Source: Anaerorhabdus furcosa
GTDB taxonomy: Bacteria; Bacillota_I; Bacilli_A; Erysipelotrichales; Erysipelotrichaceae
DNA length: 64,000 nucleotides
Assembly: GCF_900167375.1 (NCBI RefSeq)
Contig: NZ_FUWY01000004.1
Span: 1 to 64,000 of the forward strand
Direction of reading: 5' to 3'
The position numbers and the translations under genes are program-made. The notes beneath the pieces were generated by a model, which made no database searches, was not told the origin of the DNA, and saw only the letters and a list, made by a program, of their open reading frames with translations. This document shows, in pieces, positions 27,388-62,749 of the stretch. The first letter of the stretch is position 1, and each line of letters starts with the position of its first letter.

Positions 27388-28080
27388 CTATCTCCAAGGT
27401 TTTTTAGAATCCAACCAACCTTGCTCTTTCCAATGTTTCGATTCATCAGAAAAGTAGTCTTCTTTTTGTTTTGCTTTTACCATTAAATTAAACATAAACT
27501 TAATATATAAGCTGGGTTGTTTTACTTTCGAATCTTTAACTTTCTCTGATAATCTTTTCATATCCTTTTCAATCTTAATTTTATTCTTTTCACTTACTTC
27601 TTCCCAATTACCCGCTTGAATGCCAAGAGCATACGTGTAGACATTAGGAACTCCCCAATATTTAAGCGTTCTCTTTACTGGTTCAATCGCTTTTGACATC
27701 CCAGCCCCAGCTGCCGTTGAAACAACGATGGCTTTTTTTAAGAACATACTTTTCCTTGGGCGATGTGGTATCCAATATTGATAAAACAAGTCAATGAAAG
27801 CTTTCATTGGGGCAGATGGCGCCATGCAATACGTAGGTGTTGTTAAAATTAATATCTCTGCTTCTTCCATTGCATCCATAATGACCTTCTTTTGATTATA
27901 AAAAGGACATTTTGATTCATCTTGTATACAAGCTAAACAACCCGTACAAAAATGATTTAAATCTTTGGGTAAGAAAAACTCTGTTATTTCATTTTCTTGC
28001 GTTATTTTTTCACACAGTATTTTCCCAATATGATATGTAGATCCTTTATGATTTTGACCGTTAATCATTACAACTTTCAT
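27388..28080 (-). CDS. Flavodoxin-fold NADPH-dependent FMN reductase family protein
   Basis: The 230-residue protein begins VVMINGQNHKGSTYHIG, the FMN phosphate loop, and has LILTTPTYCMAPSAPMKAFIDLF, typical of the iron-sulfur-flavoprotein/NQO branch. The Cys motif CTGCLACIQDESKC in the middle may bind an iron-sulfur cluster or form a disulfide. A basic C-terminal extension follows. The ATG at 28080 has GGGAG upstream. Likely role is electron transfer or quinone/nitro reduction. Confidence 0.72.
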   Translation of the reverse strand: MKVVMINGQNHKGSTYHIGKILCEKITQENEITEFFLPKDLNHFCTGCLACIQDESKCPFYNQKKVIMDAMEEAEILILTTPTYCMAPSAPMKAFIDLFYQYWIPHRPRKSMFLKKAIVVSTAAGAGMSKAIEPVKRTLKYWGVPNVYTYALGIQAGNWEEVSEKNKIKIEKDMKRLSEKVKDSKVKQPSLYIKFMFNLMVKAKQKEDYFSDESKHWKEQGWLDSKKPWR

Positions 28081-28208
28081 GCTATTTCTCTCCCTTAATA
28101 ATGAATCAATTTCTCTTATCCCTTTTTCTAATTTATCACAATACATTTATATCATTAAATTCATATTTAAAAAAGAGTTCTATAAAAAACTTACAATTTA
28201 CTCTATCC

Positions 28209-28318: not shown

Positions 28319-28972
28319 CTAAATAATAAACGCCAATAAAATCAAAAGATACGTCCACAACGTATTCTTTTTCATATTTGTATAAATCAATCCAAAAAGG
28401 ATTGAATAAATCATAACTGCCATTGCTGTAGATAACGATCCTTTTGATAAGTAATGAACAATCCCCCAAGTAAAACAAAGAACAAGTCCACCATAAGGAA
28501 CACCCTCTCTTTGTTGAAAGTTTTCTTCAAAGAAAGCTTGTCCACATATTAATATAAGTAAAACTAAACCAATTTCCACAAAGTAATATAGATATTGAAA
28601 CAGAAATAGAATAAAACTCTTACTTTGAAATTCTGCCATGATTTTTAATGTGTGCCAATCATAATAATTCATTCCAATACAGATAATCACCAAAATTATA
28701 CTTACTACAATCCCTTTATAACTAGGTTTTGTGTAATTGAATACATCGAATTTTTTTACCTTCTTCAAATCAACAATGATATATACAATCATACCTACCC
28801 ACAAAAACATCGTAGCTACCCAATGAATAATTTTTTGAAGCGAAGAGTATTGACTCGTGATCGTCCCACTAAAAATAAAGGGTTCAACAAAAAGTAATAA
28901 TCCCATTTCTAAGCCCAGCCCCAAGAATGCAAGCATAGCATAATTTAAATAATCCCATTTGATTCCTTTCAT
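28319..28972 (-). CDS. CPBP/CAAX-protease-like membrane protein
   Basis: The 217 residues hold six to seven membrane spans. Near the C-terminus are FFEENFQQREG and WGIVHYLSKG, which match the EExxxR and (F/W)xxxH pattern of CPBP intramembrane proteases, although the first motif is not exact (R two residues later). It could be an inactive or diverged relative. Such proteins act in bacteriocin maturation or immunity, but no bacteriocin gene is adjacent. It lies downstream of the glycosyltransferase cassette on the same strand. Confidence 0.5.
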   Translation of the reverse strand: MKGIKWDYLNYAMLAFLGLGLEMGLLLFVEPFIFSGTITSQYSSLQKIIHWVATMFLWVGMIVYIIVDLKKVKKFDVFNYTKPSYKGIVVSIILVIICIGMNYYDWHTLKIMAEFQSKSFILFLFQYLYYFVEIGLVLLILICGQAFFEENFQQREGVPYGGLVLCFTWGIVHYLSKGSLSTAMAVMIYSILFGLIYTNMKKNTLWTYLLILLAFII

Positions 28973-29066: not shown

Positions 29067-30257
29067 TTACTTTTCAATAATCTGTTCAATGAGTTCAATT
29101 GTTTTATTCAATCCATCCTCTTCTTTAATTTCCTTAGAAATTCGAATGCAATTTTCTACATACTTTCCGTAGTTTTCATCCAAATCATTGATTCTTTGTA
29201 CAAGATTTTCTTTTGTAAGATCGCCAATCAAAATTGGTTTTGGCGTAACATTCAATTTAACTAGTTTTTGTGCGAATCCAACTTGATCTAATACATGAGG
29301 AATACAAATCGATGGAATTCCATAAATAAGACTTGATGCTGATGTACCAAAGCCACAATGATGAATGACTGCATATCCTTGTTTAAATAACCAACTATGT
29401 GGTACTGACTCTATCGCAAGCATTGTTTCAGGAAGAGAAATATGTTGTAGTGACTTCTTAAACCCTTGAATGATTGCTCGTTTATTAGTAGTCGTAAATG
29501 CCTCTATAAAACAATTCAGTTTATCCACTTCTTCTTTACTCTCAAATGACATAGCACCTAGAGCTAATATAATTGGTTTATCTCCATTATTTAAAAAGTG
29601 CTCTAAATCTTTCGATGGTGTAAATAACTCATCATCTAAAAACCAATAACCAACTACTTTATTGCTACTAGCCCAATAAGGATTTGTTTCTTGCATTAAG
29701 TGACTAATTGGAATTAAATTTAACTCTTTAGACATTACTTGATCCATTGATTTTACTTTCTTTAAATTATACTTTTTTCTTATTTTATTATAAGGCTTTG
29801 CCATGACAGGATTAATTATCAATGCAATTAATTTTTCTTTCATTGTTTTTTCTTTTTTTACTTCTGGTAGCATTTCAGTTTGAAGTGTTACATTGATTGT
29901 GTTAATACCTAGTGCTTCTGCTTCCGCTGCTCCCATTTGACTATGCGTAACAACAATTAAATCCTTCTCTTTACAACACTCATAAATCTCATTTGATGAT
30001 TGCTCAATAAGTTTAAATACAAAATTCATTGTCTTTAACATACTCATCATTGGATTTTTACTATTGCCTCTTATTTTAGATGCCTCAATTTCAATATCGA
30101 CATCAAGTCCTATCGATACAAATGTAACTCCTTGTTTTTCAACAAGTTCCTTCCAACAAGGATGTGTACCTAATGTAACACTCATCCCCTGCTTCATAAG
30201 TGCCTTTGATAATATAAGATAAGGTTGAACATCTCCCCTTGTCCCCATTGTAAACAT
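29067..30257 (-). CDS. UGT/MGT-family glycosyltransferase (sterol/macrolide-type), start disrupted by an A8 tract
   Basis: This GT1-fold enzyme has the N-terminal GTRGDVQPYLILSKAL signature of sterol and carotenoid glucosyltransferases and the C-terminal donor-binding block HHCGFGTSASSLIYGIP. It should move a sugar from a nucleotide sugar to a lipid-like acceptor. At 30271-30273 an ATG with AGAGGAAT upstream would begin MKKIAMFTMG, but the intervening tract has eight A residues instead of seven, shifting that start out of frame. Translation may begin at the internal ATG at 30257 and lose about five residues. It is the last gene of the TetR cassette. Confidence 0.75.
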   Translation of the reverse strand: MFTMGTRGDVQPYLILSKALMKQGMSVTLGTHPCWKELVEKQGVTFVSIGLDVDIEIEASKIRGNSKNPMMSMLKTMNFVFKLIEQSSNEIYECCKEKDLIVVTHSQMGAAEAEALGINTINVTLQTEMLPEVKKEKTMKEKLIALIINPVMAKPYNKIRKKYNLKKVKSMDQVMSKELNLIPISHLMQETNPYWASSNKVVGYWFLDDELFTPSKDLEHFLNNGDKPIILALGAMSFESKEEVDKLNCFIEAFTTTNKRAIIQGFKKSLQHISLPETMLAIESVPHSWLFKQGYAVIHHCGFGTSASSLIYGIPSICIPHVLDQVGFAQKLVKLNVTPKPILIGDLTKENLVQRINDLDENYGKYVENCIRISKEIKEEDGLNKTIELIEQIIEK

Positions 30258-30283
30258 AGCAATTTTTTTTCATGTAAATTCCT

Positions 30284-31045
30284 CTACTCTTCGGTTGTAT
30301 GCTGGTGAAATACTTGTTTACCTAGCAAAGTAATTGCCTGCTTTGGACATTGATTTATACAACGATAACACATTGTACATTGATTTGAAGCAATTGCTTT
30401 ATTATTCTCTAGACTGATATTTTTCATAGGGCATAACGCAACACATAAACCACATCCAATACAATCATCACTTATTTTTAATTTACTTGAATATGATTTT
30501 GTCTTACTCAAAAAGTAAAGCCGTTGACCAAAACAACCTAGCATTGTTGAACCAAAACTCATTCCTTGTTGTGGATAGTGGTTTTCTTTAATTTGTTCTG
30601 CTATTCTGTTTACTTTTGTTGTCGCTTCATTTATTATTTTTTCAATTTCTTTTGGTGTATGTTTTAATAATTTTTCATCACTTATGCAATCTGGCATTTT
30701 AAAATGAACACCACCTATAGGAATTGCACCATAACTTTTTAGAAAACGTGTTAATCTACCACTACCATCACCACTAAACAATCCCATGGTCGCAATAACA
30801 AATACTTTTTTACAATTCCATATTCCTGAATTGTTATGAATAAAATCAACTAGAATTTTTGGTATATTGCTATATTGAACTGGATAACTTATATAAATGG
30901 TTTCTGCTCCTTGAATTTCAAGTATGGACTTAGGATCTTCAATAGAAAACATTTCTATTTTAGGACTTATTTTATACAATAATTTTTCTAAACAATATTT
31001 TGAATTACCCGTCCCACTAAAATAAATACCCACACTTGTCTTCAT
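30284..31045 (-). CDS. EFR1-type flavodoxin-ferredoxin fusion
   Basis: Residues 1 to about 160 form a flavodoxin-like domain (GIYFSGTGNSKYCLEKLL, IYISYPVQYSNIPKILVDF). The C-terminal 70 residues carry two complete 4Fe-4S motifs, CIGCGLCVALCP and CTMCYRCINQCP. This is the EFR1 family, presumed electron carriers. It lies between the desaturase-like oxidoreductase and the glycosyltransferase, and may feed electrons to the former. Confidence 0.85.
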   Translation of the reverse strand: MKTSVGIYFSGTGNSKYCLEKLLYKISPKIEMFSIEDPKSILEIQGAETIYISYPVQYSNIPKILVDFIHNNSGIWNCKKVFVIATMGLFSGDGSGRLTRFLKSYGAIPIGGVHFKMPDCISDEKLLKHTPKEIEKIINEATTKVNRIAEQIKENHYPQQGMSFGSTMLGCFGQRLYFLSKTKSYSSKLKISDDCIGCGLCVALCPMKNISLENNKAIASNQCTMCYRCINQCPKQAITLLGKQVFHQHTTEE

Positions 31046-31086
31046 GCATTTTCCTCTTTCTAAACATCATTAATATTGAAATACCT

Positions 31087-32568
31087 TTAATTATTTTTTT
31101 TACTCTCCAATGCTTGAATTGTTTGGATAGCAAATTTACCTTGAACAACTGCAACAGGAGTACCTCCTGGTGTCATTTGCCATTGACTAGCAAGGATGAT
31201 GTTTTTTATTGGCAATTCATTATTCATAATCATCATTTGTTTGTTGTTGGGTGTCATCGCATAGGCCATAAATGATCCTTTATATGCATTAACATAATTC
31301 ACATAGGTTTTTGGCGTTACAACATCCAAATCCTCTAATTCTTCCATTTCAGGAATGAGATTCACTATAATTTCTTTGAACTTATCTGATATTTCTTGTT
31401 TAAACGCTTTGTATTCTTCTTTGCTCATTTTTTCTATTTGATTGTATTGGTCTTCATTTGTAATAAGATTTACTTGTACGACTGTTTTTCCATTTTGAAT
31501 AAGAGTTGGTTCATAACCAAAGTGTTTTATTCCAATACTTGTGTAAGATTCATTTAAAACAGTATATTCGTTTGTCTTATAAAATGAAGTTTGAGCTATT
31601 CTACTTAAATCAGCATTTGTTCGATAAATTGCTGTTATTAAACTGCAAGTAGGATTCTTTATTTTATCTTGATCACGTTTCATCATTTCACTAATTTCAT
31701 ACTTATTTTTTAGAAGATGCTTAGTTAGATAATGAAGATCTAAAGCACTGACAATATAATCCGCATTGTATACAGTTCCATCGCTCAATTGAACTCCACT
31801 TGCTACATCATTTTCTACTAAAATTTCATCAACATTGCAGTTCAAATTTAGTTTTCCACCCAATGCTTCATATTTTTTAGTAACTCTTTCAATCAGTGGT
31901 TTTGATCCCCCTGATGGTACACCACTATTTTTGATCATTAACCCACCTAAAGTAGCGAGTAAAGAGGAAGTACTGTAGTTACTTGGAATCATTGAATTAG
32001 TAAAAAAGAATTTTAATTCTTCACTTTCAAACTGTTGTCCAAATTCTTCAATAGAAAGTGTTCCATACTCCTTCATCACTTTGATAAGAGGAAGCATTTT
32101 CATTCCATAACTTAAACCTTCCATCATTGTCCATAAATGAAAAGGTTTCTTAGAAGGAACAGATCCACAATTCATAGACTTCTTAATATTTTTTATAAAT
32201 TTCTTTAGTATTTTTTTATCATTTGGTGTTGCGTATTGATCAAGTTCTTTCTCCAATTTAACTAAATCTGTCCACATGTTAATTTTGTGACCATTGATAT
32301 TTACTTCATAGAAAGTATCACCATCATATATTGTAACCGTATCATCTAATGCGCCTATTTCGTGCCAGATTTTATTTAGATCACCTTTCTTGGATTCAGT
32401 TAACCAATGAATACACCCTTCGATATAACTACCTTTTCGTGTCCATCCTGTACATAGACCTCCTGCATAATTATTTTTTTCAACTATTTCTACTTCATAT
32501 CCAGCTTTTCTTGCATAGATTCCTGCAGATAATCCTGCAAGTCCTGCTCCAATAATAATTATTTTCAT
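31087..32568 (-). CDS. FAD-dependent oxidoreductase, phytoene desaturase (CrtI/CrtN)-like
   Basis: A 493-residue flavin amine oxidase/carotenoid desaturase-type protein. The N-terminal dinucleotide motif is IIIIGAGLAGLSAGIYARKAGYEVEIVEK, split over residues 2-30, followed by AGGLCTGW. ADYIVSALDLHYL is the typical central block, and the C-terminal MTPGGTPVAVVQG closes the FAD site. Enzymes of this family dehydrogenate, isomerise or reduce isoprenoid or steroid-like lipids. No phytoene synthase is present. The ATG at 32568 overlaps the tetR stop, giving translational coupling. Confidence 0.8.
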   Translation of the reverse strand: MKIIIIGAGLAGLSAGIYARKAGYEVEIVEKNNYAGGLCTGWTRKGSYIEGCIHWLTESKKGDLNKIWHEIGALDDTVTIYDGDTFYEVNINGHKINMWTDLVKLEKELDQYATPNDKKILKKFIKNIKKSMNCGSVPSKKPFHLWTMMEGLSYGMKMLPLIKVMKEYGTLSIEEFGQQFESEELKFFFTNSMIPSNYSTSSLLATLGGLMIKNSGVPSGGSKPLIERVTKKYEALGGKLNLNCNVDEILVENDVASGVQLSDGTVYNADYIVSALDLHYLTKHLLKNKYEISEMMKRDQDKIKNPTCSLITAIYRTNADLSRIAQTSFYKTNEYTVLNESYTSIGIKHFGYEPTLIQNGKTVVQVNLITNEDQYNQIEKMSKEEYKAFKQEISDKFKEIIVNLIPEMEELEDLDVVTPKTYVNYVNAYKGSFMAYAMTPNNKQMMIMNNELPIKNIILASQWQMTPGGTPVAVVQGKFAIQTIQALESKKNN

Positions 32569-32570
32569 AA

Positions 32571-33140
32571 CTAACACCCCTGTTCCTTTTTATATAAAGA
32601 CATTAATGCATTAAATTGATTGGTAAGTCGATTCGCAACTTCATCTTCATCAATGTGTACAAGATCAAGATTTAAGGCACAAGCTAAACCATAAGTATAG
32701 ATTGCCATTTCCAAATGATATTCAGCTGCTTGTTTTTCTGTGAGTTGATATACATCCGTTAAAATGTATCGAATTTGATCAGAGTTTACATCTTCGAATC
32801 TGAGTCCTTGTTGATTTTGAGCTTGCATATATAGAAAATTAAAAAGTCCCTTATGTTCTTTTGCAAACTTAACATAGCCCATCCCTACACTTAAATAAGA
32901 AGAATACTTACTATTATTAAGATAATAACTCACACAGTCTTTGTATGTATTTTCAGCTTCTACCTTTAGAGCAATTTTTAAATCATCCATACTTTTAAAC
33001 TCAGAATAAATGGGTTGAGTTGAGCAACTTAAATAATTTGCTATTTTACGAGCATTCAAACTATCAATTCCCTCTGTTTGTACAATGAAAAGCGATGTTT
33101 CTAGAATTTTTTCTTTACCAACATGTTTCAATCTAGGCAT
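32571..33140 (-). CDS. TetR/AcrR-family transcriptional regulator
   Basis: The N-terminal DNA-binding domain (residues 6-50) has ILETSLFIVQTEGIDSLNARKIA and CSTQPIYSEFKSMDDL, typical of TetR regulators. The C-terminal ligand domain is helical and poorly conserved. Length 189 is normal. The tandem palindromes at 33152-33183 lie directly before it. It is the first gene of the cassette and probably represses the whole unit until a small hydrophobic ligand binds. Confidence 0.85.
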   Translation of the reverse strand: MPRLKHVGKEKILETSLFIVQTEGIDSLNARKIANYLSCSTQPIYSEFKSMDDLKIALKVEAENTYKDCVSYYLNNSKYSSYLSVGMGYVKFAKEHKGLFNFLYMQAQNQQGLRFEDVNSDQIRYILTDVYQLTEKQAAEYHLEMAIYTYGLACALNLDLVHIDEDEVANRLTNQFNALMSLYKKEQGC

Positions 33141-33151
33141 AATATCTCCTT

Positions 33152-33183
33152 ATATAACATCCGTTATATAACATATGTTATAT
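33152..33183. promoter_or_regulatory. Overlapping TetR operators
   Basis: ATATAACATATGTTATAT (33166-33183) is a perfect 18-base palindrome. A second, imperfect dyad ATATAACATCCGTTATAT (33152-33169) shares its edge. They lie just upstream of tetR. Confidence 0.75.
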
Positions 33184-61494: not shown

Positions 61495-62103
61495 ATGATG
61501 ACTAACAAAGGCGAGCAAACAAAGGCAGAAATTTTAACGATATCGAAACAAATATTTTCCAAGAACGGTTTTTCATCAGTTACCATGAGTGATTTGTGCG
61601 AAGCAACAGGATTAAGTCGAGGTGGATTATATCGACATTTTTCATCAACAAAAGAAGTTTTTACTGTTTTATTTGAATCAGATAAAGATAATTGGCAAAC
61701 TGAAATGGATAACGCAATGCAAAAAGGTATTCCTGCTCTACAAATGCTTGAGGTTTATCTCAATCAAATTCAAAAAGAGATTCATGATGGTGCCGGAGGA
61801 TTATCTCTTGCCCTCTATGATTTTGTACAAAGCAAGCAAGAGTCGAATAGTTTCCTTGATGCTAGATATGATTTAGGAGTGAATATGATGAAATCATTAC
61901 TTCACTATGGCCAACAACGTGGAGAATTCAAATCTTTCAACCTTCAAACAGAAGCAGAACATATCGTCATCTTTTTAGAAGGATTAAAAACTGCCAGTGC
62001 TGTTATTCCTTTTTCTGATGAAGTCATTTCAAGACAACTTAATCATATTTTAGAAAGAATAAAAACAGAAGGAGTTCACAATGAAAAAAAATCCTGTATT
62101 TAA
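61495..62103 (+). CDS. TetR/AcrR-family regulator upstream of CAT
   Basis: The DNA-binding domain (residues 6-55) has ILTISKQIFSKNGFSSVTMSDL and ATGLSRGGLYRHFSSTKEVF. A ligand-binding helical domain completes 202 residues. It lies behind a promoter with twin operators and overlaps the CAT gene by 23 bases, so it likely autoregulates the pair. Starts at 61495 or 61498; AAGGAG fits both. Confidence 0.87.
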   Translation: MMTNKGEQTKAEILTISKQIFSKNGFSSVTMSDLCEATGLSRGGLYRHFSSTKEVFTVLFESDKDNWQTEMDNAMQKGIPALQMLEVYLNQIQKEIHDGAGGLSLALYDFVQSKQESNSFLDARYDLGVNMMKSLLHYGQQRGEFKSFNLQTEAEHIVIFLEGLKTASAVIPFSDEVISRQLNHILERIKTEGVHNEKKSCI

Positions 62104-62749
62104 TCCCATCGATAGAAACTCATACCCAAGATCTCAGCAGTTTTATTATTATACTGAAATGGCACCGACTACCTACTCAGTCAATGTGACACTAGATGTT
62201 ACAATCTTAAGAAAAACATGCAAAGATAACCATATCAAGTTTTTTCCTACTTATCTTTATTTGGTTACACGTGCTATTGGAAAACAACAAGAACTACGCA
62301 TGTGCATACACAATGGGGTACTAGGATATTGGGATAATCTAACACCCACCTACCCCCAATTTCACGATGATGATAAAACAACCTCTTTGCTGTGGACTGA
62401 ATATGATGATAGTTTTCAAGCATTTTATACATGTTATTTAGAAGACATTGCAAAACATAAAGCGAGTCATGGTGTTTTATCATCAAAGGGTACTCCTTTA
62501 TCAAATTCCTATATTATTTCATGTATTCCTTGGTTCACCTTTAATAGTTTTTCATTGCATAATCATGGAATCAAGGATTATTTTGTTCCAAGTTTTGAAG
62601 CTGGTGGATTTGTAGAAAACAATGGGAAAATTACAATGCCTCTCTCGATTACAGTACACCATGCAACAACAGATGGATATCACCTCAATGTCTTTTTTAA
62701 TGAACTACAAAGAACAATGAATCATCCTGATGAGTGGTTCTACCAATAA
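62081..62749 (+). CDS. Chloramphenicol O-acetyltransferase family protein
   Basis: A 222-residue CAT-family protein. The N-terminal part has TYSVNVTLDVTIL and FFPTYLYLVTRAIG, the active-site block is VHHATTDGYHLN near residue 190 with the catalytic His and the Asp kept, although canonical CATs read AVCDG where this has ATTDG. Central SCIPWFTFNSFSLH also matches. It should acetylate chloramphenicol or a related acceptor; resistance is inferred, not shown. Start follows AGAAGGAG inside the tetR end. Confidence 0.85.
   Translation: MKKNPVFNPIDRNSYPRSQQFYYYTEMAPTTYSVNVTLDVTILRKTCKDNHIKFFPTYLYLVTRAIGKQQELRMCIHNGVLGYWDNLTPTYPQFHDDDKTTSLLWTEYDDSFQAFYTCYLEDIAKHKASHGVLSSKGTPLSNSYIISCIPWFTFNSFSLHNHGIKDYFVPSFEAGGFVENNGKITMPLSITVHHATTDGYHLNVFFNELQRTMNHPDEWFYQ

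Follow-up and report, generated by a model that had tools for sequence, protein, structure and literature searches.

The locus

The window analysed here is a stretch of 64,000 nucleotides from Anaerorhabdus furcosa (contig NZ_FUWY01000004.1, positions 1 to 64,000). Between positions 29067 and 33140 it carries four consecutive genes, all on the minus strand, for a TetR-like regulator, an FAD enzyme, an EFR1 protein and a UGT-type glycosyltransferase. The features of the locus are as follows:

29067–30257, minus strand: body of a UGT-type (GT1/GT28) glycosyltransferase, with the C-terminal donor motif HHCGFGTSASSLIYGIPSICIPHVLDQVGFA present (family searches)
30255–30273, minus strand: ATG 30273 linked to a Shine-Dalgarno sequence and followed by an A8 tract (30263–30270), not in frame with the body of the glycosyltransferase
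30284–31045, minus strand: EFR1-family flavodoxin plus 2x[4Fe-4S] ferredoxin (NF038196 match)
31087–32577, minus strand: FAD oxidoreductase of the CrtI/carotenoid isomerase/amine oxidase superfamily (family searches)
32571–33140, minus strand: TetR-like regulator of 189 aa, with a strong Shine-Dalgarno sequence, AAGGAG (weak HMM match, several weak signals)
33150–33183, no strand: putative operator between coaD and tetR, consisting of two overlapping 16-bp palindromes, TATAACATCCGTTATA and TATAACATATGTTATA, with a 14-bp period

An earlier note, made from the sequence alone, had described four minus-strand genes of these kinds behind a palindromic operator, and all four ORFs, the operator and operon-like spacing are indeed present. 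Taking ATG 32568 as the start of the FAD enzyme (the likely one, 2 nt past the tetR stop) and ATG 30273 as that of the glycosyltransferase, neighbouring genes are separated by 2, 41 and 10 nt. Every start has a plausible ribosome-binding site, apart from the glycosyltransferase's internal ATG. This spacing, together with the double operator upstream of tetR, fits a self-regulated operon, in which the operator is putative.

The two palindromes, at 33153–33168 and 33167–33182, lie immediately upstream of tetR and are nearly unique in the genome: the exact sequence TATAACNNNNGTTATA is found at three sites in the whole 2.4 Mb, two of them at tetR. For the 96-bp gap upstream of tetR, 21 of 5000 shuffles attained two perfect 6-4-6 palindromes. 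The third exact site is on contig 9, at 8749, between rex and asnS, and a site with one mismatch lies on contig 2 within a large, repeat-rich surface-type gene. Since these extra sites are located between rex and asnS or inside a gene, no further targets of the regulator are claimed, and a regulon extending beyond the operon was rejected.

Is the first gene a tetR gene? The signals for the family assignment suggested earlier are weak. A TetR-family structure, 3cjd, matches the regulator at 3.4e-4, and the gene is adjoined by palindromes, a trait of the TetR family that is seen here at the level of the sequence; the Pfam model TetR_N, however, matches only weakly (E 0.019, 15.2 bits), below its cut-off of 24.

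The operon sits behind an ftsW-rsmD-coaD block. This gene order is retained in several relatives, while the genes after coaD vary from genome to genome, which fits an accessory operon acquired at a variable site. A phage origin was rejected, as the FAD enzyme, the glycosyltransferase and the regulator have no relatives in viral contigs and there was no PHROG of note. A role in defence was likewise rejected, the PADLOC matches being trivial. Rfam gave no match between 24000 and 38000.

Downstream of the operon, on the same strand, are an FMN-reductase-like gene (27388–28146) with a compact CX2CX2CX6C motif, by eye of the iron-sulfur flavoprotein type, and a gene for a membrane protein of 217 aa that matches no Pfam family (28319–28972). 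No terminator-like site was found on the operon strand between the operon and these two genes, which possibly extend it.

The redox proteins

The electron carrier is a clear member of the EFR1 family, as had been proposed (NF038196, E 2.5e-49, 168.5 bits against a cut-off of 75). It has the flavodoxin domain and the two 4Fe-4S clusters of that family, with all eight cluster cysteines present and conserved in a five-sequence alignment. It differs from the inspected relatives in its surroundings, since it sits beside an FAD enzyme and a glycosyltransferase whereas they adjoin other genes.

The description of the FAD enzyme as phytoene-desaturase-like is borne out at the level of the superfamily, that of CrtI and the carotenoid isomerases. 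The similarity to CrtI/CrtISO (TIGR02734, TIGR02730) is full-length and includes the N-terminal FAD-binding motif and a C-terminal GG motif, and Amino_oxidase (PF01593) matches at 2.2e-24. However, the enzyme scores under all curated cut-offs; the best NCBIfam model, crtI_fam (TIGR02734), gives 94 bits against a cut-off of 238. A family of 25 sequences built around the enzyme matches carotenoid isomerase models (best 3.6e-41) as well as CrtI family models (best 1.9e-35), so that reduction, isomerisation and desaturation are all possible reactions. A structure prediction from a two-row alignment had a mean pLDDT of 37. The genome has no other full-length member of the enzyme's family. About 28% identity, within the same superfamily, links it to EfiO of the epifadin cluster (Staphylococcus epidermidis pIVK83), but EfiO sits among PKS/NRPS genes, and such synthases were not seen in the window.

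The earlier note had remarked that a phytoene synthase gene is lacking at the locus, and the absence extends to the whole genome, which is 95.7% complete: the phytoene/squalene synthase model SQS_PSY (PF00494) has no match there, while the same search matches 7 of 14 control genomes. Because of this, ordinary carotenoid synthesis is unlikely.

The glycosyltransferase and its start

The glycosyltransferase body matches Glyco_transf_28 (9.5e-13) and EryCIII-like_C (6.5e-9), and by sequence its closest relatives of solved structure are sterol 3-beta-glucosyltransferases (5xvm, 5gl5; 1e-28). It shares its sequence family and donor-binding motif with these and with the macrolide enzymes of TIGR01426, but falls well short of the cut-off of that macrolide model (87 against 260 bits). 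Thus, the UGT-type assignment stands, but the GTRGDVQP motif, which had been taken as a signature of sterol and carotenoid glucosyltransferases, is not specific, since macrolide-type models match too.

The start of this gene is unusual. The frame as listed opens MFTMGTRGDVQP at an ATG inside the gene (30257), which lacks a ribosome-binding site at the normal distance. At 10 nt from EFR1, on the other hand, come AGAGGA and ATG 30273, the latter followed by eight A, and the reading frame from that ATG gives MKKNCYVYNGDKGR. The ribosome-binding site and natural ATG are therefore shifted by one base against the body, in whose own frame MFTMG follows KKIA, with TGA just before it. Both of the closest relatives of the glycosyltransferase (from Butyrivibrio proteoclasticus pCY186 and from genome G242) start MKKIAMFTMGTRGD, which points to one extra A between the natural start and the body. 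No such A tract in the window is longer than this A8.

What does the frame break mean? It could be a sequencing slip, a phase switch, a loss of function or a site of slippage rescue, and the gene may accordingly be mis-sequenced, switchable, decaying or simply off here. In another bacterium, rescue of an interrupted gene by transcriptional frameshifting has been reported (PMC4256274). Judged from its reading frames, the glycosyltransferase may be translated otherwise than as drawn. With its start out of frame, the sugar step is possibly off in this assembly.

Recurrence in other genomes

The four genes were not found together a second time in any of the approximately 690 distinct genomes of the phylum that were searched with the FAD enzyme, and the lack of co-occurrence that the earlier note had named as refuting its reading was thus seen in every genome searched. 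For the phylum as sampled, the absence of a second copy is firm. Coverage of the Clostridia, home of one of the glycosyltransferase relatives, was scarce and amounted to a single relative, in a MAG whose contig ends at the gene, with SbcC-like genes (by eye) on the other side.

The FAD enzyme itself is rare. Among 272 genomes of the family of A. furcosa it occurs in the genome itself and as one 25% match, and the order-level search yielded nothing beyond these family matches. Among 392 genomes of the phylum there are 15 others, at 28–41% identity, and the family of the best phylum match supplied nine more genomes. EFR1, the glycosyltransferase and this regulator were undetected within about 1.5 kb of the FAD-enzyme loci (less at contig ends), of which twelve were inspected out to about 6 kb. 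FAD-enzyme relatives in other Bacillota thus occur without an adjacent EFR1, so the partnership with EFR1 is not fixed. A back-to-back divergent pair of FAD-enzyme paralogues is found in each of G664, G656 and G651, which belong to a single genus (pairs L069/L074, L062/L072 and L063/L073).

The closest EFR1 relatives are in G647 (52%, behind a different TetR gene), G095 (48%, between GNAT-like and phosphotransferase-like genes) and G087 (48%, by an unrelated gene). G647 also has the nearest FAD enzyme (41%), on a separate contig, and with so few cases this co-occurrence is not evidence of linkage. The nearest glycosyltransferases, in G242 of the same family as A. furcosa (54%) and on the B. 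proteoclasticus plasmid pCY186 (51.5%), are without the operon partners, the former beside a divIVA-like gene and the latter among hypothetical genes. Literature on EFR1, on gut desaturases with glycosyltransferases, on retinol saturase and on gut sterol glucosylation contained nothing relevant to the four-gene set.

Possible function

What could such a set of genes do? Our tentative preference, held at a little less than even confidence, is for an accessory operon, autoregulated and inducible, whose products modify a small hydrophobic molecule that the cell makes from neither phytoene nor squalene. Its TetR-like protein would occupy the double operator at its own promoter until it binds the substrate or a related ligand. 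The FAD enzyme would then reduce, isomerise or desaturate a double bond, with electrons supplied via the EFR1 carrier, and the glycosyltransferase would attach a sugar that renders the product soluble or inactive; the order of the redox and glycosylation steps and the nature of the substrate are conjectural. In favour of this are the spacing of the genes, the double operator, the missing synthase, the site behind coaD, the nearness of the glycosyltransferase to sterol glucosyltransferases among solved structures and the match of the FAD-enzyme family to enzymes that act on long hydrophobic polyenes; against it are the occurrence of the set in one genome, the unfixed partnership of EFR1 and the broken or unusual start of the glycosyltransferase. 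The coherent detoxification or lipid-modification pathway of the earlier note thus keeps its parts, operator, spacing and missing synthase, but its coherence derives from adjacency in one genome. Read as a conserved pathway it is not supported, while the pathway idea itself is plausible. A more specific scheme, an inducible pathway with EFR1-fed reduction or isomerisation of a polyene or steroid-like molecule, subsequent glycosylation, and slippage at the A8 tract switching the glycosyltransferase, is decidedly improbable.

The main competitor is that four unrelated accessory genes were gathered by chance behind coaD, where they would share a promoter but serve separate pathways. This is somewhat unlikely, yet to be taken seriously: the closest relatives of EFR1 and of the glycosyltransferase are each found in different contexts, and the genes after coaD vary among the relatives. 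The tight gaps between tetR and the FAD enzyme and between EFR1 and the glycosyltransferase (2 and 10 nt), the shared strand and the one common operator argue the other way. It is improbable that the operon instead remodels a lipid of the cell itself, for example by acting on a fatty-acid double bond before a glycolipid step. The flavin amine-oxidase superfamily does include fatty-acid isomerases, and one of these, structure 2b9w, was weakly matched in a profile search; however, the rarity of the FAD enzyme (its own genome and one 25% match among the 272 family genomes) does not suit a core lipid function, and the TetR-like repressor suggests an inducible role. Finally, the desaturase-like enzyme and glycosyltransferase recall the pairing of staphyloxanthin-type pathways, but carotenoid biosynthesis by way of a glycosylated apocarotenoid, its synthase missing or divergent, is highly improbable and was rejected, given the absence of SQS_PSY from a nearly complete genome, the crtI_fam score far under its cut-off and the single full-length desaturase-family member.

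If the modification of a hydrophobic molecule is indeed what the operon does, it would connect an EFR1 carrier with an enzyme of the CrtI type and give an example of on-demand sugar tagging of a hydrophobic molecule in a bacterium; at present, it is a single-genome observation built from known enzyme families. Elsewhere in the window, a second TetR-family gene is overlapped by a gene of the chloramphenicol acetyltransferase family (61495–62749; PF00302, 2e-55), and the C-terminal part of an IS3-type transposase, recognised by eye, lies at the window edge (3–266).
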